A stretch of DNA of 41,030 bases from a virus, in the IMG/VR virus record IMGVR_UViG_3300032083_001940, positions 1-41,030 of that record, one strand, 5' to 3'. The notes beneath the pieces were generated by a model. The model saw only the letters and a program-made list of their open reading frames with translations. It was not told the DNA's origin and made no database searches. Positions 1,277-41,030 of the stretch are shown one piece after another (the first letter of the stretch is position 1; each line of letters opens with the position of its first letter). Position numbers and translations under genes: made by a program.

Positions 1277-3551
1277 CTTTATACTCTCTTACTTGATCTA
1301 ATTCTTTCTGACTAAAGGCGTGAGGAGTATCTTCAGATGCTCCCTGTACTGTGATAGGTAACACGGTACTGCGGCAGTTGGGGTGTGCTGGCGGGTACTC
1401 CACTCCACCACCGGTATAGTCTAGGTTGATTTTGCTCTCCGTTGGGTCCCCTACGTTCACGAACGCATCGGTTAAAGCGACGATCTTTCCGTCTAGCTCA
1501 TTGCAAATACCACTAGTGCTCTGGTCCAGTATGGCTGACCACTGCATGGCCTGCACTACACCACTTGCCTGGTAGCCCTCTATGGCCCCCTTGTGTACGA
1601 ACCGCGTAGTCTCTGTGCGGGCAATCATGGTAGCGCGTACGTCGTCCCATTGGTCGGACAGTGCTCTAATGTGGTTTTTAGTCTCTCTGATGGACAGTCC
1701 TTCTTCTCTGGCGAGATCGAACACTCCCTGTAGCTTCTTATGGGAGACGGTGGCTACCCTATCTGCGAACTTATATACGGATGACCGTATGGCTCGGGTA
1801 ACGGCGTCGGAGTCTATGGCTATATCCACACCCACACCCTTAGCACTAGAGATGATAGATCTTCCCATGACATCTCCGAGGATCCCTTGGGCATCTTCGG
1901 CCAAGGCTTCCTTCCAGGCGTCGCTTAGCTCTTGTAGTTGGCGGCGCATGGACGACTCATCGAAGGACTTAAGGGAGTGCTTCTCCTTGGATCCGAGTAG
2001 TTTCTCTGCGTCTTTAAGTTGCTTTTGCAAATGCTTGCTGGCCATCCGCATCGTGCGGGCTAGGTACTTATCTGCTAGACTGGCTCTTGCCAGCGCTAGG
2101 CTTAGTTGTCTAGCCAGTATATCGTTAATCCCCTTAGAACTCACAGAATCGGCTTCTACGGGCATTTCGTCTTTAGTGGTACTTATAGTCTCTGAAGGAT
2201 CGTTTTGCCCGTCAAGGGCCTTTAAAACGCGTTTATCGATAAGATCCAAGAGATCCTCTGCATCTATCTCTACTTCATCACTGGATTCGGACTTCTCTTC
2301 CTCTTCGGGCTCTTCTTCCTCTGGCTCCTCTTCATCGGACCCAAACAAACCACTCATATCGGGGGCAAAGTCTCTTTTGAACTGATCTCCCTCGGGCACT
2401 TCGTCGAAACCACCACACAGTCTGGCTTCATTGAGTGTGATGACACCTGCTTGGAAGTCATCCCTAGCCCTCAAGGACTTAGCGTCTTGCTCCTCTTGTA
2501 GGGCCTCTACCCCAGACAAGTCAAAGCGGATACTGGTCAAGCCGTTCTCGGTCAGGTCCATATCCGCGTTGAGTACATCTTCAATCATTCCCATCAGGGG
2601 GCGAATGCACTGTGACCAAAACTGCTTATTGGCCTCACGCATGTTATTGTATGTACTGTTGCTCTGTCCACTAACTGATTGGTACACAGGAGGTGGGATA
2701 CGCAGGGCGGCTAGGATCTTGGATTCAAACAGGTTTACCTGATTAGTGAAGTCTAGTTGGTTAAGATCGTATCCGATGCTCTCTACCGTCATGTTACCGT
2801 CTAGTACGGCGGTATCCCCGAAGTTCTGACCCCGGTAGCGGGCGTTCCACATACGAACTAGGTCTTGCTTCTCTTCTCTGGTGATTTGCTCTGGTATGGT
2901 GATGGCAATGCCTGGCTGACCACGGTTCTGCAGGAGGCGCATCATGTGGTTAGTGGCTTCGGTATCTGCGTCGATACGTCGGGCAAGAGCCTTAAGGGGG
3001 CTAAAGCCGTAGAACTTGTTTATGGGGTCAATGAATGGGATACGTATGACATCCTGGGCCGGTAGGCGGAACTCCTTGTTCTCTACACGGTAGATGTACC
3101 CAGTGATGAACTCTCTGGGATCAGCGTCCACAGAAATGAGATCGGGCCGCAGTAACCGTAATTCAGTCACTCGACCCTTCCTGTCGCGTACCTTTTCAAT
3201 GTAGCCGATATCCCCTAGGTACATGTGCAGGATCAGCTCTTTAATAAACTGCTTCTGCGTATCAATGGGGTTAATGTGCTGTAGTAACTGTTGAATGGCG
3301 GACTTCGGTAGTGGCTCATCACTCTCTGGGTCGTAGGCCTTTAGTGGGGCTTCACATACTGCACTGGAAATCAACATCAAGGCGCCATTAACCGTTTCAT
3401 TCTGCTTGAATGCCTCGTCAACCCACGTCTCAAAGTCGCTCGTGCCGCCTAGGTTAAAGCGTTCACGGGCCGTTCCAATGAAGGAGGCTCCGGCTGGATC
3501 CTTAGCTGGTGGGCCAAATACGGCCTTGTAGATGTTATTCCATATACTCAT
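1203..3551 (-). CDS. Portal protein fused to a C-terminal MuF-like head protein domain
   Basis: This 782-residue protein is much longer than a usual HK97-family portal (about 400-500). Residues 1 to about 390 match the portal pattern, with GYIEKVRDRKGRVTELRLL, IPFIDPINKFYGFSPL and the family-typical YNNMREANKQFW. An acidic Glu-rich linker follows at about 400-435, then a helical region. Residues about 580-735 look like the phage Mu gpF minor-head domain: ARTETTRFVHKGA, WSAILDQSTSGIC and PPAHPNCRS. The tail ends Cys-rich (CEECCEGH). The portal forms the dodecameric DNA gate at one capsid vertex; MuF proteins are minor head proteins, sometimes packaged. The gene starts 3 bases after the terminase stop and overlaps the protease by 74 bases. 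Fusion is seen; roles come from family knowledge. Confidence 0.88.
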   Translation of the reverse strand: MSIWNNIYKAVFGPPAKDPAGASFIGTARERFNLGGTSDFETWVDEAFKQNETVNGALMLISSAVCEAPLKAYDPESDEPLPKSAIQQLLQHINPIDTQKQFIKELILHMYLGDIGYIEKVRDRKGRVTELRLLRPDLISVDADPREFITGYIYRVENKEFRLPAQDVIRIPFIDPINKFYGFSPLKALARRIDADTEATNHMMRLLQNRGQPGIAITIPEQITREEKQDLVRMWNARYRGQNFGDTAVLDGNMTVESIGYDLNQLDFTNQVNLFESKILAALRIPPPVYQSVSGQSNSTYNNMREANKQFWSQCIRPLMGMIEDVLNADMDLTENGLTSIRFDLSGVEALQEEQDAKSLRARDDFQAGVITLNEARLCGGFDEVPEGDQFKRDFAPDMSGLFGSDEEEPEEEEPEEEEKSESSDEVEIDAEDLLDLIDKRVLKALDGQNDPSETISTTKDEMPVEADSVSSKGINDILARQLSLALARASLADKYLARTMRMASKHLQKQLKDAEKLLGSKEKHSLKSFDESSMRRQLQELSDAWKEALAEDAQGILGDVMGRSIISSAKGVGVDIAIDSDAVTRAIRSSVYKFADRVATVSHKKLQGVFDLAREEGLSIRETKNHIRALSDQWDDVRATMIARTETTRFVHKGAIEGYQASGVVQAMQWSAILDQSTSGICNELDGKIVALTDAFVNVGDPTESKINLDYTGGGVEYPPAHPNCRSTVLPITVQGASEDTPHAFSQKELDQVREYKDERQATKGDGASGQPNCEECCEGH

Positions 3552-3554
3552 TTG

Positions 3555-4934
3555 TTACCCAAATACTATCTCGTACTTACGACGAGGATTTAATTCATGT
3601 ACGGCCCACACCAACGCATCTAGTCGGTCCGGCGAGCGCCGCACTAACTCTGGACTGTACCCGGTCATTTGCTCTTCTAATATAGGTAGGTGTCCCAGGT
3701 GAAAGACCTTACCTTGTTCATACAGAGCGGCTATCGGCTCTGCGCGGCTGTACTTACCTTTGCTGGCCCGCACTGCCTTAAGTGGTAGAGTTCTATCTAC
3801 CGACCTTAATGCGTCTTTAACGAGGTCGCCACCTTGGTTGGATTCGTATACTACCATGTCACATTCGTACTTATGGTAGGTCTTCACTACGTGCTTTGCC
3901 CATTGAGCCGTTGAGGCTTTCTGTGTTTCATCTGCGATGACGTAGATAAGCCCGTCATGGGACTTTGCTGCCACCACGATCCCCGTCTCATCGCTATCGG
4001 GGTTATTGGATACTGCGGGATCAACCGCTACTATAGTTCGTATGATATCATCTGGCAGAGAGTCCACCACTTGGATCATCTCCCAGTTCCACAAAGCACC
4101 AGGTACATCCCAGCTGACTTCACCGTACAGCTCCTGTCGTCGCCTAGTCTCTGAGGCGAAGGCTGCTGCTAGGGATTCTATATACACCTCATCCAGATAG
4201 GGATTGTCGTAGGTGCTGCCCCGTACTATGGTTATCTTGTTGTTCTTCTCTAGGTCTATGAAGGTTCTGAGTAGTCGGCATGGGGTTGGTGTGCTGGCAA
4301 CTACTACGCCCACACGACCTCTAATTCGGGTAACGGTAAGGATCTGTTCCCACCATTCCATGATCTTGTTGTCTCTTCCTTGCTCATGCTCAAACCACGT
4401 TAAGATCTCATCGAGCAGTACGAGGTGGAACTCCTTTCCCCTGAGGGACTCAGCTCCTGAACCTGCGGTGTAGAAACGCACTAACGATCCGTTGGCCATC
4501 TCTATGCTACCACCGTCAGTGGTCCGCCTAACTACGTATTGGTCAGCCTGTATGGGGCCGCCATCGGTCTTCTCACGGTAACCCATCTCCTGTAGCGCGG
4601 ACGCCAGGCCTGCCTTACCACGTAACCAGATATCGTGTATATCACTAGTACGTTTGCATATGACGGCTATCTTCAGTCGATCTCTTGTGGTGAGGTACTC
4701 AACCGCGTTCCTCGACAGGCAGTGGGTCTTACCCCAGCCTCGCCCCGGTACGTAGACCTTGATGCCAAATGGCCCCCAGTCTTCCGGCTCACCCCACAGC
4801 TGATCCCACCTACACATGAAGCGCCAATGGTTTGCTATCTTAAGTTGATCGTCTGGCTCTAGCGAGCGGATGATCTCCTTGGCCTTCTTAGGGTTTGTGT
4901 GAAGGAGTTGTCGTAACTTCTTAATATGTAAGAT
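3555..4934 (-). CDS. terL: Terminase large subunit (ATPase-nuclease), probable non-AUG start
   Basis: This is the DNA-packaging motor. The first ATG (4817) gives 420 residues with Walker A GRGWGKTH, Walker B LVLLDEIL, and a C-terminal RNase H-like nuclease with VAVDPAVSNN, YESNQGGDLVKDAL and SPDRLDALVWAV. The same frame stays open for 43 codons upstream of that ATG, up to the terS stop (TAA 4949..4947). Those codons encode IRSLEPDDQLKIANHWRF, which resembles the usual terminase N-terminus before the Q motif. They contain no ATG, GTG, TTG or CTG. CGGAG at 4945..4941 sits six bases before ATC at 4934..4932, so I place the start there (459 residues). Alternatives are ATT 4925, ATC 4937 or the weakly supported ATG 4817. 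Function is certain; the start is inference. Confidence 0.88.
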   Translation of the reverse strand: MLHIKKLRQLLHTNPKKAKEIIRSLEPDDQLKIANHWRFMCRWDQLWGEPEDWGPFGIKVYVPGRGWGKTHCLSRNAVEYLTTRDRLKIAVICKRTSDIHDIWLRGKAGLASALQEMGYREKTDGGPIQADQYVVRRTTDGGSIEMANGSLVRFYTAGSGAESLRGKEFHLVLLDEILTWFEHEQGRDNKIMEWWEQILTVTRIRGRVGVVVASTPTPCRLLRTFIDLEKNNKITIVRGSTYDNPYLDEVYIESLAAAFASETRRRQELYGEVSWDVPGALWNWEMIQVVDSLPDDIIRTIVAVDPAVSNNPDSDETGIVVAAKSHDGLIYVIADETQKASTAQWAKHVVKTYHKYECDMVVYESNQGGDLVKDALRSVDRTLPLKAVRASKGKYSRAEPIAALYEQGKVFHLGHLPILEEQMTGYSPELVRRSPDRLDALVWAVHELNPRRKYEIVFG

Positions 4935-4946
4935 GATTGACTCCGG

Positions 4947-5348
4947 TTAGTCGCCTAGTAGTTCTTTCAGCCTCGCCTTAGCATCGTCACTAATTTCGTT
5001 AGTAATAGTACCACTGTGATTAACATCTAACTTATTAGCCTTTATTTTGTCTAAGAGGATCTTACCAGCAGAGATGGCGTAGCCAGTCATAGCGGGGTCG
5101 TTGCGGGAGGCCCTAACGATGTCCATAAAGACGGTTTCTATTTCTTCTGCCCTGCTCTCAGTGAGTAATTGTACGTATGTAGAGAGGCTGGGGCTGTTTC
5201 TTATCCAAGCACGTAGGGTATTGCAGTGGAGGCCCATGCGCTTAGCTGCATCATTGATGTTGCCGAAGCTCGCGTCTAGTGCGTCCATTATCTCTGAATC
5301 AGTGTATTCTGATCGGTTTGCCTTGTGTTTTTTATAAAATTTACTCAT
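4947..5348 (-). CDS. terS: Terminase small subunit
   Basis: This 133-residue protein sits just upstream of the large terminase, the usual position. It contains a helix-turn-helix-like segment (NINDAAKRMGLHCNTLRAWI, residues about 30-50) as in DNA-recognition domains of small terminases. An alpha-helical middle (ESRAEEIETVFMDIVRAS) would form the oligomeric ring, and the end is charged. Small terminases bind the pac or cos site and load the motor. It is in the same reading frame as the large subunit, separated only by TAA. No clear Shine-Dalgarno sequence precedes ATG 5348 (TTTTCAGTTATG). A promoter on the opposite strand lies 16-43 bases upstream of its start. Confidence 0.85.
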   Translation of the reverse strand: MSKFYKKHKANRSEYTDSEIMDALDASFGNINDAAKRMGLHCNTLRAWIRNSPSLSTYVQLLTESRAEEIETVFMDIVRASRNDPAMTGYAISAGKILLDKIKANKLDVNHSGTITNEISDDAKARLKELLGD

Positions 5349-5363
5349 AACTGAAAATAATGC

Positions 5364-5391
5364 TTGACATTAATGTTTAATGTGATATAAT
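5364..5391 (+). promoter_or_regulatory. Perfect consensus extended -10 sigma-70 promoter with internal operator-like inverted repeat
   Basis: TTGACA at 5364-5369 and TATAAT at 5386-5391 are 16 bases apart, with an extended -10 TG at 5383-5384. An inverted repeat, ACATTAA-TGT-TTAATGT (5367-5383), fills the spacer and could be a repressor operator. It points right, away from terS and antisense to the DUF115-like gene; no plus-strand gene follows. Elements are seen directly; activity and target are unknown. Confidence 0.75.
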
Positions 5392-5421
5392 GGGGTTAAG
5401 GGGACAGGGGACGGGTCAGGG
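5392..5421 (+). repeat. G-rich tract array (G-quadruplex motif) upstream of terS
   Basis: Five G-runs occur on the plus strand at 5392-5395, 5400-5403, 5407-5410, 5413-5415 and 5419-5421, with loops of 2-4 bases. This satisfies the usual G-quadruplex pattern. It begins immediately after the -10 box, so it would be at or just before the 5' end of the transcript. It lies in the noncoding gap beside the terminase genes, a common place for packaging sites. Confidence 0.55.
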
Positions 5422-5448
5422 CACAGCGACAGCAGCTCTAGCAACATC

Positions 5449-5464
5449 TAGCTAACTAGCTAAC
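5449..5464. repeat. Tandem 8-bp direct repeat TAGCTAAC
   Basis: Two perfect adjacent copies of TAGCTAAC (5449-5456 and 5457-5464) are followed by a partial TAAC. They also form a short inverted repeat, TAGCT-AACT-AGCTA. The repeat overlaps the last codons and stop of the DUF115-like gene. A terminase-binding (cos/pac) role is possible but is only inference from the location. Confidence 0.4.
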
Positions 5465-6913
5465 TAACTTCTCTACTAAGTGTGCTAACCTCCTTATATG
5501 GAAGCCAGCCATCTCCTCTATCAATTCTTTGTTATACCTGCCACCTCTCATAACCTGCCCCTCTTGTGTATAATGGTAGGGGTGTACCGCGTGCTGATAG
5601 GCTATGTTGTTTATATCCAGGTTGTGTAGATCTAGTTTATTGAAAGCCTCTGAATATTCTATTATCTTATTTAAGGCAGCTTCATAATAAGTACTATCAT
5701 CAGATCTACTATATGTTAGGGTGCGATTAACACCCTGACCGTGTATACGGGAAACAGTCCCCGAGGGAGGCTCGCTGAGCGCCCCCTCGACAGGTAGCGA
5801 AATTCCTATGCCGGGGACTAACTCTGGAGACTTCTGTCTCTCATTGGGCCAACGATATACTGGGATGTCCATCTTGGCAATCTGTATTTGAAGCCAATCT
5901 CTTTCCAGTATCCATGTTGTTCGTGTGCGTATTTTCTTTCCATTGACCCTTTCGTGGGTATTGTGTTCTTTATAACTAGCGTGCTTGAGGTCATCAGCGT
6001 ACTGCTTATTACCCTCAAAACAGAGGTCCAGGCCGATTAAGGTGGCACTGGCTGCGTTTACTTCTTTACAGAGTTCCAAGAACCCCGTTGAGACACCTAC
6101 ATGTCCATCGCGTATGTGGGTTAGGTCGTCTATCTTACTGAACATCTGCATGGATTGTATGCCACCGTTCAGAATTAGGTTGCCTCCGTGCTCTATCCAC
6201 TTATCAAATCCATCCGTATTAAGACCAGTATTGGTGAATAGTGGTAGGTCTTTGATGAATTCAGGGGTTAGATCCGCGAATACTGCCGTATATTGCGCGT
6301 CATATGGGTCAAATGAGTATGCTAAATCGGGCCTCATGCCCCACTTATTCAGCAGTCTCAGTCCGCTACCGGCTCCAATAACCACACAACCGGGGTCATC
6401 TATTAGGTCTTTTAGGAACTTCTTGTTCTTTCCGGCAGATGGTCCTCCACCTACGAACACTAAGTGTCTCCCATTTAGGAAGGTCTTTAGGTCTTCTACG
6501 GTGCCGACCTTCACGTCAGTGCGCTTTAGGATAGTTCCTAGGTTGTGGTAGATATTACTAAACGCCTGGTGTACTGGGTCGTAGTACATAGACCAGTTGT
6601 TCTCGAAGGATAGAGTGTCGTGTAGGAGTTTCGATCTGACACGGTCTACGGCTTCGGCTTCCTGCCTTCTAGGGTCGTCTTCTGGTAATTCATACACAGA
6701 TAGGTCCGGATGGGTGACCACCTGTAGCATGACATCCCCGTTGTACCCGATAAAGGACTTGGTGACTGGGCGCATATCATTGGGATCTAAGTTCCCTAGT
6801 ACGTGTGTTCCGCAGTCTGCGACCAGTGATCCTGGGTTGTTAGGGTCAGCCGTCAGTATAATGGCTGCTGGTCGTGTATGACAATTAATTCTACGCATTT
6901 TGCCCTGTATCAT
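5456..6913 (-). CDS. DUF115/MAF-like protein (putative glycosyltransferase of the 6-hydroxymethylpterin pyrophosphokinase MptE-like fold)
   Basis: A 485-residue protein. The central region has the DUF115 signature: LVFVGGGPSAGKNKKFL (about 150-166), then VIGAGSGLRLLNKWGMRPDL followed by SFDPYD, and later ATLIGLDLCFEGNKQYADDL (about 288-307), which corresponds to the GxDLAyxxxxxHA motif of MAF proteins. In bacteria MAF proteins transfer nonulosonic acids to flagellin; archaeal MptE is a pterin kinase. Which activity this one has cannot be told. The start overlaps the upstream gene by four bases (ATGA), suggesting translational coupling. It lies between the serine protease cluster and terS, apart from recognisable tail-fibre genes. 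A second start, ATG six codons in, is possible. The family call is fairly firm; the role is open. Confidence 0.68.
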   Translation of the reverse strand: MIQGKMRRINCHTRPAAIILTADPNNPGSLVADCGTHVLGNLDPNDMRPVTKSFIGYNGDVMLQVVTHPDLSVYELPEDDPRRQEAEAVDRVRSKLLHDTLSFENNWSMYYDPVHQAFSNIYHNLGTILKRTDVKVGTVEDLKTFLNGRHLVFVGGGPSAGKNKKFLKDLIDDPGCVVIGAGSGLRLLNKWGMRPDLAYSFDPYDAQYTAVFADLTPEFIKDLPLFTNTGLNTDGFDKWIEHGGNLILNGGIQSMQMFSKIDDLTHIRDGHVGVSTGFLELCKEVNAASATLIGLDLCFEGNKQYADDLKHASYKEHNTHERVNGKKIRTRTTWILERDWLQIQIAKMDIPVYRWPNERQKSPELVPGIGISLPVEGALSEPPSGTVSRIHGQGVNRTLTYSRSDDSTYYEAALNKIIEYSEAFNKLDLHNLDINNIAYQHAVHPYHYTQEGQVMRGGRYNKELIEEMAGFHIRRLAHLVEKLVS

Positions 6914-12080: not shown

Positions 12081-12267
12081 AAAAAGGACACATGTATGTT
12101 ACTTGCGTCTCTGGTGGGAAAGGTACTAGTTCCCCTGTGGTCACATCTTCCACCAAGATGTGCTTCTTACCATCATCCGTTAACCACTGTAATCTACCTG
12201 AGTATCTGACAAACAGTCGGTTATCGACGGTAAAGGCCTGGTCTTCTCTAATATCAAATAGCTTCAT
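12052..12267 (-). CDS. Hypothetical protein, 71 residues
   Basis: A small, probably beta-rich protein (FTVDNRLFVRYSGRLQWL, ILVEDVTTGELVPFPPET). No motif recognised. It overlaps the upstream membrane protein gene by 14 bases and the reductase gene downstream by 29 bases, typical of coupled phage genes. The upstream AAGG is only a weak ribosome site, so translation is probably coupled. Function unknown. Confidence 0.6.
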   Translation of the reverse strand: MKLFDIREDQAFTVDNRLFVRYSGRLQWLTDDGKKHILVEDVTTGELVPFPPETQVTYMCPFYDEAPQERR

Positions 12268-12610
12268 TGTGCGGCCTTGGGTTGTTTACCATCTTCTGTA
12301 ATTCTGCTATGGTGTACAAGCACTTATTACTTGGTGTTCTGCTATAAGCATGAACCATCTTCCTACATGAGTTCTCTGTAGTTATTACTCGCTCAGGCTC
12401 ACTTCGTTCGCCTTCGCTCGTAACCGGCTGCTCGAACAACCACCTAACATGAACACCAAACAATATACTAGTATATATAGCTGGTAGAAATATAAGAAAT
12501 ACAGTAAACAGGCTGATGCTTAAGGCTGCTGAAATGACTACTGCTAATGTCTTGTAAGTTGCTTTAGCAACCGTTCCAATAAAGTGGAAGAAGTTATATA
12601 AATATCGCAT
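12254..12610 (-). CDS. Small membrane protein, first gene of the leftward unit
   Basis: A 118-residue protein starting MRYLYNFFHFIGTVAKATYK, followed by a long hydrophobic stretch (about residues 22-52, TLAVVISAALSISLFTVFLI onward) that could span the membrane once or twice, then a soluble C-terminal part with two cysteines. The frame extends to ATG 12760, but that extension has no ribosome site and encodes Ser/Glu/Arg low-complexity sequence from a DNA repeat. ATG 12610 follows GAGGG at a suitable distance, so I use it. It is the first gene after the leftward promoter at 12831-12859. Function unknown; possibly an early envelope-acting protein. Confidence 0.55.
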   Translation of the reverse strand: MRYLYNFFHFIGTVAKATYKTLAVVISAALSISLFTVFLIFLPAIYTSILFGVHVRWLFEQPVTSEGERSEPERVITTENSCRKMVHAYSRTPSNKCLYTIAELQKMVNNPRPHNEAI

Positions 12611-12645
12611 ACTGCCCTCTTGCTTATTTACTTGATTATTACTAG

Positions 12646-12700
12646 TGCGCTCGTCCCGCACTTCGCTCGCTCGTTCGCTAACGCTCACTCGCTCGCTCTC
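12646..12700. repeat. Degenerate GCTCG/GCTCGTTC repeat array
   Basis: A run of near-repeats of TCGCTCGCTCGTTCGC type fills about 55 bases in the leader of the leftward transcript. A related shorter patch (CTTCGTTCG, CTTCGCTCG) lies at about 12390-12420 inside the first leftward gene. In that gene it encodes VTSEGERSEPE. The motif is sequence-level, not protein-level, since it occurs in both coding and leader DNA. Confidence 0.5.
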
Positions 12701-12727
12701 TTGTATTTCTAATACTTGTAGAATGGG

Positions 12728-12747
12728 TTGTGACATTTTGTGACATT
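12728..12747. repeat. Tandem 10-bp direct repeat TTGTGACATT
   Basis: Two perfect, immediately adjacent copies at 12728-12737 and 12738-12747. The 10-base period places both on one face of the helix, as in cooperative regulator or initiator binding sites. It lies downstream of the leftward promoter, within its transcribed leader. Confidence 0.55.
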
Positions 12748-12830
12748 TAGACCCCCACATAAAGATAAATTAATATATACCCCCACTTATGCAAAGATCA
12801 GCCTACATATACCATTAAGATCCCTTGATA

Positions 12831-12859
12831 ATAGTAAATACACACATAGTGCTTGACAA
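12831..12859 (-). promoter_or_regulatory. Leftward sigma-70-like promoter for the nucleotide/structural unit
   Basis: On the minus strand TTGTCA (12859..12854) and TACTAT (12836..12831) are 17 bases apart, matching 5/6 and 4/6 of consensus. The -35 lies on top of the -35 of the rightward promoter, so the two cannot readily be occupied together. Predicted start near 12824, leaving a leader of about 210 bases before ATG 12610. Confidence 0.5.
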
Positions 12860-12881
12860 GGTATGTGGTTCTTGCTATAAT
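12853..12881 (+). promoter_or_regulatory. Perfect consensus rightward early promoter
   Basis: TTGACA (12853-12858) and TATAAT (12876-12881) are separated by 17 bases, with an extended -10 TG at 12873-12874. It is upstream of all rightward early and replication genes, so it is very probably their main promoter, read by host sigma-70. Predicted start near 12888, about 35 bases before the first gene. Confidence 0.85.
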
Positions 12882-15986: not shown

Positions 15987-17623
15987 TGGGCAAGTTGTTG
16001 AAAGCACACCAAGAGTGCCCTAAGTGTGGGTCTTCGGATGCTGCAGCACGCTATGACGTAGAGTCTGGACCAGATGGATTCTGCTTCTCCTGCTCTCAAG
16101 CCTTTAATTGGGATGTTGATGAGGAGGAAGAGGTCGTAATCGAGGCAGTCCCTGTGCGGATGGGGCAGATGTCAGAGATCAACGCCTTGCCTAGTCAGGC
16201 AATCCCTGATAGACTGATCAGCCAGGCTACCACTGCCAAGTACGGAGTAAAGGAGAATGGAAACAGGCGGTACTACCCCACTTATCGATCCGGGGAGCAT
16301 ATAGGGTACCGATGCAGGACTTTACCGAAGAGTTTCAAGGGCGGTCATGTTGGTGACGTGGGTGGCGTACTGGAGTTCTTTGGACAGCACTGCTGGTCTA
16401 ACGGCGGACGAGGCGATAGGCTATGCATAGTTACCGTAGGCGAAGAAGATGCAATGGCAGCTCACCAAATGAGCCGACAGCACGCAAAGAATGGACGAGG
16501 CTACTGTGCAGTGTCCTCACCCTCTGGTTGTGCAGTATTAATCAAGACCGTCAAGGCTCAGTTAGAATGGTTAGAGGGTTTTGAGAAGGTAGTGTTTGCT
16601 GTAGACCAGGAGCAGGTAGACTTAGAGAAGGCAGCGGAGGCAGCCGAGCTACTGTCCCCGGGTAAGGCAGCTATCGCTTCGTTCAGTGAGAATGATGCGT
16701 CGGACATGCTGAAGGCTGGAAAGAGTAAGGAGTTCTATCACGCTATATGGGGAGCTAAAGTATACAGTCCAGCGGGTATAGTGCCCAGTGCGGACACCTG
16801 GCAAATGCTAGAAGAGTTCAGCCTTAATAGCGTATTCCAACTACCTAAGGTTTGGGGACTCAATGAAATCCTTCCCATAATTCGTCCCGATGACCTGGTT
16901 CTTATAGCCGCGGGTACAGGGGTTGGTAAGTCCACCATGCTAAAAGAATTAGAATACCACCTACACAAGACCACTGACTATAACATTGGAGTAGTGCACC
17001 TAGAGGAGTCACTGGAGAACACGGTTATGGGCCTGGTAGGTATGGAGTTGGGTGTCAAGCTGGACGTACTGAACAAGGATTCAGTGGACCCGGAGGACAT
17101 GAAAAAGGCGTGGGAAACGATGTTCAAGGGCAATCGGTTCTACTTTGAACAGGCATTTGGTGCCATCAACGAGATGGGTATTGTAAACAAGATTAGGTAC
17201 CTCGTGAAGGGCTGTGACTGTAAGGTACTGGTGATAGACCACTTACACGCCTTGGCTAGTGAGTTTGGGGATGACGAGAACAAACACTTGCACCAACTGG
17301 TGTATAGATTAAAATCCTTGACACAGGAACTAGGATGTACTATAATATTGGCAGTACACGTAAGGAAGAGGCAGGACGGCGTGAAGGGTTACGAGGACGG
17401 AGCAGTGCCCACCCTTGACAGTATTAAGGGTAGTAGTAGTATTAAACAGGTAGCGGACGCCGCGATCTCCATTAGTAGAGGCAACATAGGGGAAGACAGC
17501 ATTACTCAATACCACTGCGTCAAGAACAGACACTACGGGAAACTAGGTCAGGGTAATAAGTTGACTTATAATCACACCACTGGTAGAATAGAGTTATACG
17601 CTGAACAAGAAGGTATAATGTAA
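15986..17623 (+). CDS. Primase-helicase (T7 gp4-like)
   Basis: A 545-residue bifunctional protein. Residues 11-36 form a four-Cys zinc finger (CPKC and CFSC) that reads template for priming. A TOPRIM-like primase core follows, with VGEEDAMAAHQM (catalytic Glu region) and VVFAVDQEQVD, where the usual DxD is DQE. From about residue 285 comes the RecA-like replicative helicase: Walker A GTGVGKST (309-316), VGVVHLEESLENT, Walker B VLVIDHLHALAS, and ILAVHVRKR followed by DSIKGSSSIKQVADA. It unwinds DNA at the fork and lays primers, like T7 gp4. It directly precedes the polymerase genes. The gene contains a consensus promoter (17318-17346). Confidence 0.93.
   Translation: MGKLLKAHQECPKCGSSDAAARYDVESGPDGFCFSCSQAFNWDVDEEEEVVIEAVPVRMGQMSEINALPSQAIPDRLISQATTAKYGVKENGNRRYYPTYRSGEHIGYRCRTLPKSFKGGHVGDVGGVLEFFGQHCWSNGGRGDRLCIVTVGEEDAMAAHQMSRQHAKNGRGYCAVSSPSGCAVLIKTVKAQLEWLEGFEKVVFAVDQEQVDLEKAAEAAELLSPGKAAIASFSENDASDMLKAGKSKEFYHAIWGAKVYSPAGIVPSADTWQMLEEFSLNSVFQLPKVWGLNEILPIIRPDDLVLIAAGTGVGKSTMLKELEYHLHKTTDYNIGVVHLEESLENTVMGLVGMELGVKLDVLNKDSVDPEDMKKAWETMFKGNRFYFEQAFGAINEMGIVNKIRYLVKGCDCKVLVIDHLHALASEFGDDENKHLHQLVYRLKSLTQELGCTIILAVHVRKRQDGVKGYEDGAVPTLDSIKGSSSIKQVADAAISISRGNIGEDSITQYHCVKNRHYGKLGQGNKLTYNHTTGRIELYAEQEGIM
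17318..17346 (+). promoter_or_regulatory. Perfect consensus sigma-70 promoter inside the primase-helicase gene
   Basis: TTGACA (17318-17323) and TATAAT (17341-17346) with a 17-base spacer, on the coding strand. It lies about 280 bases before the end of the primase-helicase gene. It would add transcription of the downstream polymerase, exonuclease, resolvase and sigma-like genes. Sequence match is direct; use in the cell is inferred. Confidence 0.6.
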
Positions 17624-22691: not shown

Positions 22692-23216
22692 ATGGCTATC
22701 TACACCGATATTGACCAGCTACTGATCGAATACACGGAGGACGTTCGTGATAGGCTGGCACGCAACGTCATGTACTGGAGTAAGAGTTACCCACACCTGA
22801 ACGATATACTAGACGACGGCTATATAGTTATGTATAGCCTTTTTCTAGATGAGGAAAAGGGGTGGGATCCTGAAGTGGAGGAGTTCATTACATGGGCGAT
22901 ACGCTGCCAGGACAAAGCTCGGTATCGATACTGGGCTAACTGGAATAAGATGATACCCAAGGATGTTGTTCGACCACGACAGTGGGAGACCCTGGGTACT
23001 GTAGAGTGGAAACCAGACGTCAAGGAAGAGGTGATATTAAGTTACCTCTCTAAGACCGAAAGGATTGTTTGGGATCTATATTTACAGGGATACAACTACG
23101 AAGGAATCGGGATGGAACTTGGAATGGATGCGACATCAGTGCGGCAACACTTCTGTAGAGGAAGAAGGCGACTACGAGAGAAGATGCGACAAGTGGACTG
23201 GGACGAGATTCGATAA
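22692..23216 (+). CDS. RNA polymerase sigma-factor-like protein
   Basis: A 174-residue protein. Residues about 116-166 match sigma-70 region 4: LSKTERIVWDLYLQGYNYEG and then IGMELGMDATSVRQHFCRGR, with the helix-turn-helix that contacts the -35 element. The N-terminal part (MYWSKSYPHLNDILDDGYIV, WAIRCQDKARYRYWANWNK) could correspond to a reduced region 2. It is the last gene of the rightward unit, right before the terminator. That suits a middle-to-late regulator redirecting host polymerase to the leftward structural genes. Region 4 is clear; regulator role is inferred. Confidence 0.75.
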   Translation: MAIYTDIDQLLIEYTEDVRDRLARNVMYWSKSYPHLNDILDDGYIVMYSLFLDEEKGWDPEVEEFITWAIRCQDKARYRYWANWNKMIPKDVVRPRQWETLGTVEWKPDVKEEVILSYLSKTERIVWDLYLQGYNYEGIGMELGMDATSVRQHFCRGRRRLREKMRQVDWDEIR

Positions 23217-23221
23217 CAGCA

Positions 23222-23248
23222 GCCTCCGGGAAACCGGGGGCTTTTTTT
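23222..23248 (+). terminator. Rho-independent terminator of the rightward unit
   Basis: GCCTCCGG-GAAA-CCGGGGGC (23222-23241), an eight-pair stem with one G-U pair and a GNRA loop, followed by seven T. It lies six bases after the sigma-like gene. Confidence 0.9.
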
Positions 23249-23254
23249 AGGCAC

Positions 23255-23286
23255 AAAAAAATACCCACCTCCCTAAGGAAGTAGGT
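23255..23286 (-). terminator. Rho-independent terminator of the leftward structural unit
   Basis: On the minus strand ACCTACTTCC-TTAG-GGAGGTGGGT forms a ten-pair stem with two G-U pairs, followed by A and seven T. It closes the leftward unit just downstream of the holin-like gene, back to back with the rightward terminator. Confidence 0.8.
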
Positions 23287-23290
23287 ACCC

Positions 23291-29400: not shown

Positions 29401-29965
29401 TAGCTTTATCCTTAGCCGAGACTATACGGGTAGTTCCCTGAACGCTGTCTTCCGTTGCTGGGTTACCCGCCACCTTGATCTTATCCCCCACAGCGATTGC
29501 TTCGTATAGAGGAGTCTTGGCCGTGTACATAGTTAGTGTTAAACCGTCTGAGGAACAGGTGTGTATCCCGTCTCCCGATGAGTGTACCCTATTAGCGTGG
29601 TTGAGGTTAATCAGATCACCATCTAATACGAACTTCTCCACTGTCTGTATTTCATGGTCCGCTATAGCTACGACCATGTGTAGATCAGCAGTGGTATCCG
29701 CTGATGTATCACTAAAGATCAAGTGACCAGATGCCTGTACTCGTCCGTATACAATACGTCTAGTACCTACTGGTTCCTTAATCGTGAGGGTTCGGTTGAA
29801 CTTCTGCTCACCACCACCTCCGCCGCCACCTTGGCTGGGGGCAAAGGCCTGTGATAAGAAGATCTTAAATAGGCCGCCGAGTAGACGACCAAAGAGTCCT
29901 CCACCAAACAGTCCGCCGAACTGGCCACCAAATACGGTGCCTAATAACCCGAGTCCACCACCCAT
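26480..29965 (-). CDS. Tail tip attachment (host specificity) protein, lambda J-like
   Basis: A 1161-residue central tail-tip protein. It opens with a Gly-rich stretch (residues 1-55), then the J-type core beginning EPVGTRRIVYGRVQASGHLI, and later GGQWYIFPGENKTPILTLTD and KATWDIAGSGFITNG. Its later part has fibronectin-like beta domains (VQNVNVQQNGVFITLSWDKV, then YRIKRG). It follows K-like and L-like genes, as in lambda. J-type proteins close the tail tip and mediate binding to the host. It ends ITGYHVGVRDL and overlaps the first fibre gene by four bases. Confidence 0.9.
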   Translation of the reverse strand: MGGGLGLLGTVFGGQFGGLFGGGLFGRLLGGLFKIFLSQAFAPSQGGGGGGGEQKFNRTLTIKEPVGTRRIVYGRVQASGHLIFSDTSADTTADLHMVVAIADHEIQTVEKFVLDGDLINLNHANRVHSSGDGIHTCSSDGLTLTMYTAKTPLYEAIAVGDKIKVAGNPATEDSVQGTTRIVSAKDKANRTLTMDTALPTHHRGNPGTIQEHVILKAGETAANNLLSTGTVTYDGETASVVIDGDGKRTVTLGSTSYNVEEQRTFSGGTVTIQWYIKVEGDTKVFVSNATTTAGTSTDTGYEEVIEVGGREFGDKARLEYALGTDPQLARQSLTAEVRQWTSNHTGNGVAYLYGRFSADNDVFPNGAPNLGAIVQGKKLYDPRTSTTYWNSNAALVLRDYLTNTRYGAKIPEADLNEASFIAAANLCDESVVKADGTTEPRYAVHTVLDTKDAMIDNITHILNAMDGTLAYAGGQWYIFPGENKTPILTLTDDHIIGKFKISNRVPFRDRFNTIKGTYIAEENSWQESDFPSVVDAAAKADDNDIELIEDIELKAVASPSQAQRLAKIRLNKMRQEIMVEGEFDLAAYPLFIGDTFYLTHEDAGWTQKLFVVQEWQLAALDDDDQDTTAPTLGVKLVAREWASNIYDFDPTTDETEVDPNPNTSLPKIGSIQAPTGLALSSGTDDLLNLGDGTVISRIKATWDIAGSGFITNGGQVEVQVRESGQITWQPAGRFSGDRSSVHLTNVRDGVNHDVRIRFIDSVGIKSTWSGVFDHYVVGKTAKPGNVQNVNVQQNGVFITLSWDKVTDLDLSGYRIKRGPTWEDAQIIANVHKTEVFHRAFGPDTHKLLIKAVDTTGNESDIPAVATFTVTNTQTPNTEFKHTDAAHFQGTLVNFTQHHTGDLIPETDDLITDEGDTGDESFGWGNRTFEEECTAEFQEIDLGSDTAVWAFGTLDSALMPGTSGDVNPRLQIKYRLDGEPASGDASTVNLITERGTPVDMILHHTNTLIPANTRAAQSASATTFPLDDVIGVGSFETEEIDLGSNIVVNIDADVVTELFRPATTGTPNVTVLFDSKTSAGAYSGFQQFDAGQINARYVKFKLVANASTGQTTIKSAVAEISNYRSWNTPGEITARYVQFRIKVLTAEAPAQITGYHVGVRDL

Positions 29966-30405
29966 TACTTAATTAATCTCCAACATTTCAATATCTTAGC
30001 GTCATGTAACGCTAGGTAATCCACACCATACTCTTTGGATGCGAATACTACTCGTCCGGCCTCGACCATTCCTGCATTATGCTGCCCGTCTCTGTTGAGA
30101 TAGACACATACATCCCCGGTACGGGCCATTAATTCTGGTAACTCTTTCCCTCCCAGGTGCATTATACCTGCATGTAGGGCTTCGAATATACTACCGTTCT
30201 TTCCGTGACCTCCGTCCTTATCGTCGTAAGGGGAGTACACTCCGTCCCGCACACATGTTTCAAATACGTCTACGTCCGTCATTGCCTTAATGAAACCATT
30301 ACAGAACTGGCAGCAGTCAAACTCTCCCCACTTCCATCCTGTCTCTTTACATCTATCTATATAACTGAATAATCTACTGTCTGCGTCTGGTAGTCTTGTC
30401 AACAT
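29965..30405 (-). CDS. Tail assembly protein with Cys peptidase-like motif (K-like, NlpC/P60-type)
   Basis: A 146-residue protein. GWKWGEFDCCQFCNGFIKAM matches the DCxxF active-cysteine motif of phage tail NlpC/P60-like (DUF6950) proteins, and ARTGDVCVYLN followed by GQHNAGMVEAGRVVF gives the likely His region. Proteins of this kind sit next to J and assist tail-tip assembly or cell-wall passage. The start follows AAAGGG with a 10-base gap. It overlaps the J-like gene by one base. Confidence 0.75.
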   Translation of the reverse strand: MLTRLPDADSRLFSYIDRCKETGWKWGEFDCCQFCNGFIKAMTDVDVFETCVRDGVYSPYDDKDGGHGKNGSIFEALHAGIMHLGGKELPELMARTGDVCVYLNRDGQHNAGMVEAGRVVFASKEYGVDYLALHDAKILKCWRLIK

Positions 30406-30429
30406 TGCTTATATGCCCTTTGTTTGCCC

Positions 30430-30494
30430 TGTACTGGCGTTTCTACCAGTACCCTATGGTATACTACCCGTGGATAGCGATATGCTCACCACGG
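30430..30494 (-). other. Intergenic hairpins between L-like and K-like genes
   Basis: Two inverted repeats lie in a 110-base noncoding gap (30406-30515). GTACTGG (30431-30437) pairs with CCAGTAC (30446-30452); CCGTGG (30468-30473) pairs with CCACGG (30489-30494). Neither is followed by a T-run. They may be RNA-processing or regulatory structures in the late transcript. Confidence 0.45.
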
Positions 30495-30515
30495 CCCTTT
30501 AAATAGCCTCTATGG

Positions 30516-40341: not shown

Positions 40342-40446
40342 TTGATTTCTCCTTTAGGCATTTCCTCTAAAATTAGGTCGGGGTGCATGACCAGTACGCA
40401 ATGCGAATTTTACCTGGATTGAACACCCCAATATCGACACTAAGGA
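40342..40446 (-). other. 105-base spacer between capsid and decoration genes
   Basis: No gene is seen. On the minus strand GGGGTG and CACCCC arms are separated by about 39 bases and could form a long-loop hairpin. The end supplies the ribosome site AAAGGAG for the decoration gene. No sigma-70 consensus or T-run is visible. Confidence 0.35.
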
Positions 40447-41030
40447 TTAAGTAATCTCAATACGGGCAAAAGCTTTCTTGTCCATTGGGACTCCGTCGTA
40501 GGCGAAGTTGATCCTAACGGCTACTTTCTTCTCATCGAAGTAACGGCTTCTGTCGATGTCGACTCTGTTTTCCTCGTCAACTACCATCAAGTACTCGCCT
40601 AGGTCGCCGAATACGATGGGTGTTTCACCGCTGGCGTTACCGTCAGCTAATGATTTTGTTTCTATCACGGGTGCACCGAGAAGAGTAGGTGGCAGGCCAG
40701 CTGCTACAGGTCGGTTCCAGATAGGTAGATTCTGTGAATCTTTAAGTTTCATAACGGTTGCAATCGCATCCTTGTGCATGTACCATGCGCCAGAATGTCT
40801 GTACTCTTCGTCTAGCTTCATCATGCAGTCTACGAGTGAGTCGTAGTCTAGGCCAGATGCTAGGGAAGTTACGTTAACCGTGTTAAAGGCTAGGTTGTCT
40901 AGCAGTGTAACAATACCGAGTGGCTGGTTAGAACCAGTACCGGTCATTATACGATCGTCTTGGTCGTTAAACGCGTTACGAGCAGCTCTCTGTAGAAGTA
41001 GAGGCATTAGGTTTGCACCAGCCTTTCTTT
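40447..41030 (-). CDS. Major capsid protein, C-terminal part of the protease-capsid fusion
   Basis: This is the C-terminal portion of the HK97-fold capsid protein whose N-terminus lies at 1-1276. Bases 40887-41030 duplicate 1-144, so the join is unambiguous; the one difference (base 62 G, base 40948 T) is synonymous (ATC/ATA, Ile). The segment contains TGTGSNQPLGIV, a family-typical motif, and later the P-domain-like stretch with LPIWNRPVAAG and LLGAPVIET. It ends ARIEIT, stop at 40449..40447. Downstream, after a 105-base spacer, is the probable decoration protein. An internal ATG at 41007 begins MPLLLQ, but the frame is open well upstream, so this is not the true start. Confidence 0.93.
   Translation of the reverse strand, partial: RKAGANLMPLLLQRAARNAFNDQDDRIMTGTGSNQPLGIVTLLDNLAFNTVNVTSLASGLDYDSLVDCMMKLDEEYRHSGAWYMHKDAIATVMKLKDSQNLPIWNRPVAAGLPPTLLGAPVIETKSLADGNASGETPIVFGDLGEYLMVVDEENRVDIDRSRYFDEKKVAVRINFAYDGVPMDKKAFARIEIT
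40887..41030. repeat. Terminal direct repeat, right copy
   Basis: Second copy of the end overlap (see left copy at 1-144). The mismatch at 40948 suggests either a read error or two co-existing variants in the sampled population. Confidence 0.9.

Follow-up and report, generated by a model that had tools for sequence, protein, structure and literature searches.

A Consensus-Perfect Promoter Directed against the Leftward Genes beside a Putative terS Gene of an Environmental Siphovirus Probably Makes an Early Antisense RNA

Introduction

In an environmental-sample phage, a perfect sigma-70-type promoter lies beside the putative gene for the terminase small subunit (terS) and reads rightward, against all genes in its neighborhood. 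Which role could a promoter have that is directed against the genes around it? The window analyzed here is the whole stretch of 41,030 nt of IMG/VR record IMGVR_UViG_3300032083_001940. An initial annotation of this DNA suggested a new regulatory or packaging-linked RNA. Antisense transcription over late genes has a precedent in phage PAK_P3, where early antisense RNAs cover structural genes and were proposed to keep late genes off (PMC4933390).

Results

The DNA itself directly shows the sequence motifs, their frequencies relative to chance, and the arrangement of the genes. We consider the window an apparently complete, circular-mapping siphovirus genome, because its ends overlap and the protease-capsid gene runs across them. 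The overlap comprises 144 bp (1-144 and 40887-41030 of the window) with 1 mismatch; the genome is classed as linear. The contig ends represent an assembly overlap in the capsid gene and are not physical ends. The initial annotation had all genes reading leftward, which is correct for the local genes but not for a module at about 13.2-23.2 kb. This module reads rightward and codes for primase-helicase, DNA polymerase, exonuclease and, as last gene, a sigma-factor-like protein. The leftward remainder comprises the nucleotide-metabolism genes, a protease gene, a DUF115/MptE-like gene, the putative terS, the gene for the terminase large subunit (terL), and the portal, head and tail genes. At 23221-23290, precisely at the point where the rightward module meets the leftward one, each strand carries a strong terminator-like hairpin. 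A gap of 107 bp (5349-5455) separates the DUF115/MptE-like gene from the putative terS, and the promoter is located wholly inside this gap (Table 1).

Table 1. Coordinates of the features at the terS locus and of related features elsewhere in the window
Feature	Position	Strand	Remarks
Terminase large subunit gene (terL)	3555..4817	-	
Putative terminase small subunit gene (terS)	4947..5348	-	133 aa, N-terminal HTH, no Shine-Dalgarno
Consensus-perfect sigma-70-type promoter	5364..5391	+	TTGACA 5364-5369, N16, TATAAT 5386-5391
Palindrome ACATTAA-TGT-TTAATGT, candidate operator	5367..5383	.	Overlaps -35 and spacer
Candidate Rho-loading (rut) site	5382..5421	-	20 C, 3 G in 40 nt
Five G-runs	5392..5421	+	5392-95, 5400-03, 5407-10, 5413-15, 5419-21
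CTAGCTAA/CTAA tandem repeat	5448..5469	.	Stop codons in six frames; holds DUF115 stop codon
DUF115/MptE-like gene	5456..6913	-	PF01973; 3' end would be covered by predicted antisense RNA
Second perfect promoter	12853..12881	+	Heads rightward early replication module
Third perfect promoter	17318..17346	+	Inside primase-helicase gene, upstream of DNA polymerase gene
Sigma-factor-like gene	22692..23216	+	PHROG 1740 E 4.9e-7; Pfam Sigma70_r4_2 E 6.8e-5, below curated cut-off

The promoter at 5364 matches the sigma-70-type hexamers at 12 of 12 positions, and its spacer of 16 nt falls within the 16-18 nt expected for this type. TG at 5383-5384 forms an extended -10, and the start of transcription is predicted at about 5397-5399. 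This is exactly the rightward promoter that the initial annotation had described. To estimate chance occurrence, we counted perfect sites (TTGACA-N16-18-TATAAT) in 200 dinucleotide shuffles of the genome. Only 0.02 sites were expected per shuffled genome and 3 were observed; the assumption that a perfect match is unlikely to arise by chance was thus confirmed, yet the site is not unique. The three perfect promoters, at 5364, 12853 and 17318, are all on the + strand, and none was found on the leftward strand. Because the other two also read rightward and are located before or inside early replication genes, we tentatively assign the 5364 promoter to the early class. It looks like a member of a small class of early promoters for the host sigma factor, odd only in its place and direction. 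The statistics and these class-mates in the same genome support a real promoter directed against the local genes.

The palindrome covers the -35 region and the spacer, a position that suggests a function as operator. The sequence can alternatively be read as a perfect 10-bp palindrome, ACATTAATGT, plus a repeated third half-site. The 7+7 inverted repeat reported earlier for the spacer is indeed present, but such repeats occur at chance level genome-wide (21 observed, 18-32 in shuffles), and what stands out is only its location within the spacer. No second good copy of the palindrome was found in the genome. Two tandem copies of TTGTGACATT are present at 12728-12748, at the start of the leftward gene 12254-12760 and close to the divergent promoter region; they could represent a second operator sharing the ACATT half-site. 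The combination of operator and promoter was rejected as a shared element: the pattern ACATTAA-N3-TTAATGT-N1-3-TATAAT matched 12 contigs in 4 unrelated settings. The largest set of matches was antisense within a coding sequence resembling a T4-type structural gene, and the match in contig L087 was an ordinary promoter. On another unrelated phage contig (L089, 4155-4179, - strand), a palindrome-containing promoter-like site is located divergently beside a likely terS. The tandem repeat beside terS was also confirmed but is unremarkable, since CTAGCTAA x2.4 at 5448-5466 has a score of 38, ordinary among 16 arrays.

These counts bear on the view that the locus is a coincidence, in which an AT-rich gap between genes matches the consensus by accident and adjoins a C-rich, Rho-type leader on the leftward mRNA. 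The chance-level numbers of the palindrome and the tandem repeat agree with this, as do the promoter scores of distant relatives, which are raised on both strands beside terS as expected for AT-rich gaps. With 0.02 perfect sites expected per genome and an extended -10 that adds to the match, we nevertheless hold a coincidence to be quite improbable.

Three reading frames that follow the promoter (21 aa, 43 aa and, antisense, 188 aa) were considered as short genes and rejected: none has a Shine-Dalgarno sequence, and the start of the 21 aa frame falls inside the -10. The promoter lies opposite a late or co-transcribed gene and is followed by no coding frame, as for the cis-antisense RNAs of the PAK_P3 kind. 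If transcribed, the RNA would be antisense, with a G-rich 5' end and without unusual structure. A structured RNA was rejected by folding (z = +0.66, not unusually stable) and a known RNA family by the lack of an Rfam match at gathering score. No intrinsic terminator above chance was found on the + strand downstream of the promoter.

Four of the five G-runs would be transcribed, directly behind the predicted 5' end of the RNA. The G-quadruplex (G4) motif noted in the initial annotation stands as far as the five G-runs and their G4Hunter score, the highest of any window in the genome (2.2), are concerned, but canonical G4 motifs, of which the G-runs form one, are not unusually frequent (2 in the genome versus 0.77 expected from shuffles). 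The same bases read as a C-rich leader on the opposite strand. Rho-loading sites are C-rich and poor in G, and the tract fits these established features: on the leftward mRNA, 5382..5421 is the most C-rich, G-poor stretch of 40 nt among all leftward windows, and its C-minus-G value ranks within the top 0.02% when the windows of both strands are taken together. It follows directly after the DUF115 stop codon and the multi-frame stops and precedes the terS start, which lacks a Shine-Dalgarno sequence. Being C-rich, G-poor and untranslated, the leftward mRNA has here the sequence characteristics of a Rho-dependent terminator. The leader is a good candidate for a Rho-loading site that ends read-through from the metabolism genes, and this reading fits the G-run bases equally well as the G4 reading.

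The predicted start among the G-runs corresponds to what is found for the G4-associated non-coding RNA of Neisseria gonorrhoeae pilE, whose promoter starts in or next to a G4 motif (PMC3547852). By analogy, RNA synthesis through the G-runs could open a DNA G4 for cutting or recombination. The shared anatomy (PMC3547852) and the top G4Hunter window favor such a licensing transcript. However, an antisense-strand G4 is present at the same place in none of 54 distant relatives, the C-rich rut reading explains the same bases, and our literature search found no precedent for a packaging G4. We therefore regard licensing as very improbable. Extremely improbable, in our view, is a phage counterpart of the gonococcal RNA: a regulated non-coding transcript with a G4 at its head, made beside terS and acting in cis on the initiation of packaging or the formation of genome ends. 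In the gonococcus, the G4-associated sRNA was shown to be required for recombination (PMC3547852); the phage locus is not known to be a site of recombination or cutting.

We searched for close relatives in IMG/VR with the terS, DUF115, terL and portal proteins, in phage records with the same proteins and the polymerase, and in bacterial genomes with terL. Nothing close was found in these searches, from which records very near the window were possibly left out. The best full-length terL match was about 39% identical, and our comparison set consisted of 54 distant terL loci. These generally lack an element like that at 5364, none has antisense-strand G4 motifs or G-runs beside terS, and they give no support for a conserved packaging element. 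Only one family among the 54 (L015 and L017) has a perfect or near-perfect promoter beside terS that points away from terL, and there it drives ordinary divergent genes. A search for a promoter followed by G-runs gave one unrelated match, a sense leader in L115 (IMGVR_UViG_3300042691_041916). It shares a perfect promoter and G-runs with the same spacing, but its promoter points with the genes, similar leaders are found upstream of other genes of the locus, and the sequence is otherwise unrelated. At 3471-3519 and upstream of other leftward genes, this phage seems to use one arrangement repeatedly, a promoter-like box with a G-rich leader behind it.

The L015/L017 family raises the question of whether the 5364 promoter is a relic. 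It would then have served, as an early rightward promoter, divergent genes leading away from terS, until insertion or inversion of the leftward metabolism/DUF115 module cut it off from them; it might still fire without a selected role. This is supported because a promoter at the same position drives divergent genes in L015/L017 and because the 54 loci lack an antisense G4. The mosaic nature of phage genomes and the lack of a coding frame or structured RNA after the promoter are also in line with it. A stranded promoter should decay, though, and this one has kept a 12/12 match with extended -10 and spacer palindrome. Moreover, no direct sign of an inversion is seen, and the third-position skew of DUF115 resembles that of the neighboring genes. 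Overall, we judge a relic to be somewhat unlikely.

The gap might primarily serve as packaging start (cos/pac) and/or as leftward late-promoter region of terS. TerS or a late activator would then bind the palindrome and the C/G tract, and the perfect promoter would be incidental or doubly used. The initial annotation had called the spot beside terS a typical cos/pac location; the adjacency is given, but terS itself is assigned from a weak HTH hit and its position next to terL, and no PHROG hit was obtained. The putative TerS has an N-terminal HTH and long helices. A fold search gave weak hits including the small terminase structure 4dzj, which were not significant, and a sequence search against solved structures returned nothing. 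In phage SPP1, pac shares sequence with the late promoters and with the start of terS (gene 1) (PMC6316719), and this arrangement, the gap directly upstream of terS, the TerS features and the absence of a Shine-Dalgarno sequence before terS all favor a packaging function. The contig ends, however, are no physical ends, no leftward promoter motif common to the gap and the other leftward units was found, and a packaging site does not need a 12/12 promoter with correct spacing. A primary role in packaging is therefore unlikely in our estimation. The regulatory gap directly upstream of terS is common to SPP1 and this phage, but the late promoters of SPP1 point with the genes and the promoter described here points against them (PMC6316719).

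No leftward sigma-70-like promoter with at least 9/12 matches was found in the gap 5349-5455. The product of 22692-23216 is likely a late transcription switch and a candidate for turning on the leftward genes; no promoter motif for this sigma-like factor was found upstream of them. The late motif of the phiEco32 type, TAATGTATA, was rejected, as it was not clearly enriched near leftward starts. In the gap 30406-30515, a hairpin (GTACTGG-N8-CCAGTAC) is located in front of gene 29965-30405, and GTACTGGT of this gap also occurs in the gap 40342-40446.

Discussion

Our preferred explanation, to which we assign a probability of roughly 40%, is an early antisense promoter, used by the host polymerase, that counteracts leftward read-through toward the packaging genes. 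The sequence at 5364-5391 would be an early-class promoter for host sigma-70-type RNA polymerase; from its gap, with the nucleotide-metabolism/DUF115 genes on one side and the packaging operon on the other, it would direct transcription rightward. Its product would be an untranslated RNA that begins with a G-rich segment and is complementary to the DUF115 mRNA in the 3' part of the latter. During the early phase of infection, convergent transcription would keep leftward read-through out of terS-terL, and the C-rich untranslated Rho-type site on the opposite RNA may assist this block. Later, the promoter could be shut off by a protein that binds the spacer palindrome, or by the phage sigma-like factor replacing host sigma. 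What we infer here is that the promoter is active and when, that the palindrome serves as operator, that Rho acts on the leader and that the leftward genes are affected. This early antisense function is supported by the sigma-like gene at the end of the rightward module, the lack of a leftward promoter of at least 9/12 in the gap and the lack of a downstream frame with Shine-Dalgarno sequence. It is weakened by the missing + strand terminator above chance, the ordinary RNA structure, the single good copy of the palindrome and the general absence of the element from distant relatives.

Early antisense RNAs have been described for other phages, and the promoter probably gives rise to one of this type. 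Of the two functions offered in the initial annotation, a regulatory antisense RNA is plausible and has precedent (PMC4933390, PMC10134795), which also means that the element would not be categorically new. The packaging-linked RNA found no support, given the fold z-score, the lack of an Rfam match and the absence of antisense G4 beside terS in the 54 distant relatives. In the virulent phage PAK_P3, transcription directed against late structural genes starts from promoters that are active early in infection, and the promoter described here would likewise oppose late genes. PAK_P3, however, has 20 antisense RNAs detected by RNA-seq, nearly all inside genes (PMC4933390), and this phage has one predicted promoter in an intergenic gap with palindrome and G-runs. 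LUZ100 likewise shows non-coding antisense transcription in its late/structural module, but transcriptomics placed the antisense RNA downstream of the capsid gene and not beside terS, and it has no known operator or G-runs (PMC10134795). With phiEco32 and 7-11, this phage would share early promoters for host sigma-70 and a phage-coded sigma factor for late genes (PMC8948821); PMC8948821 does not mention antisense transcription, however, and the sigma-like gene of this phage is a weak match.

If the promoter is active, this phage would add to those that direct an early promoter of the host polymerase against late genes of their own, and a single short gap would combine a promoter on one strand with a Rho-type leader on the opposite strand. 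Antisense control would then act at the precise boundary between metabolism and packaging genes, with a visible candidate operator, and antisense timing control would be testable by a single promoter mutation.
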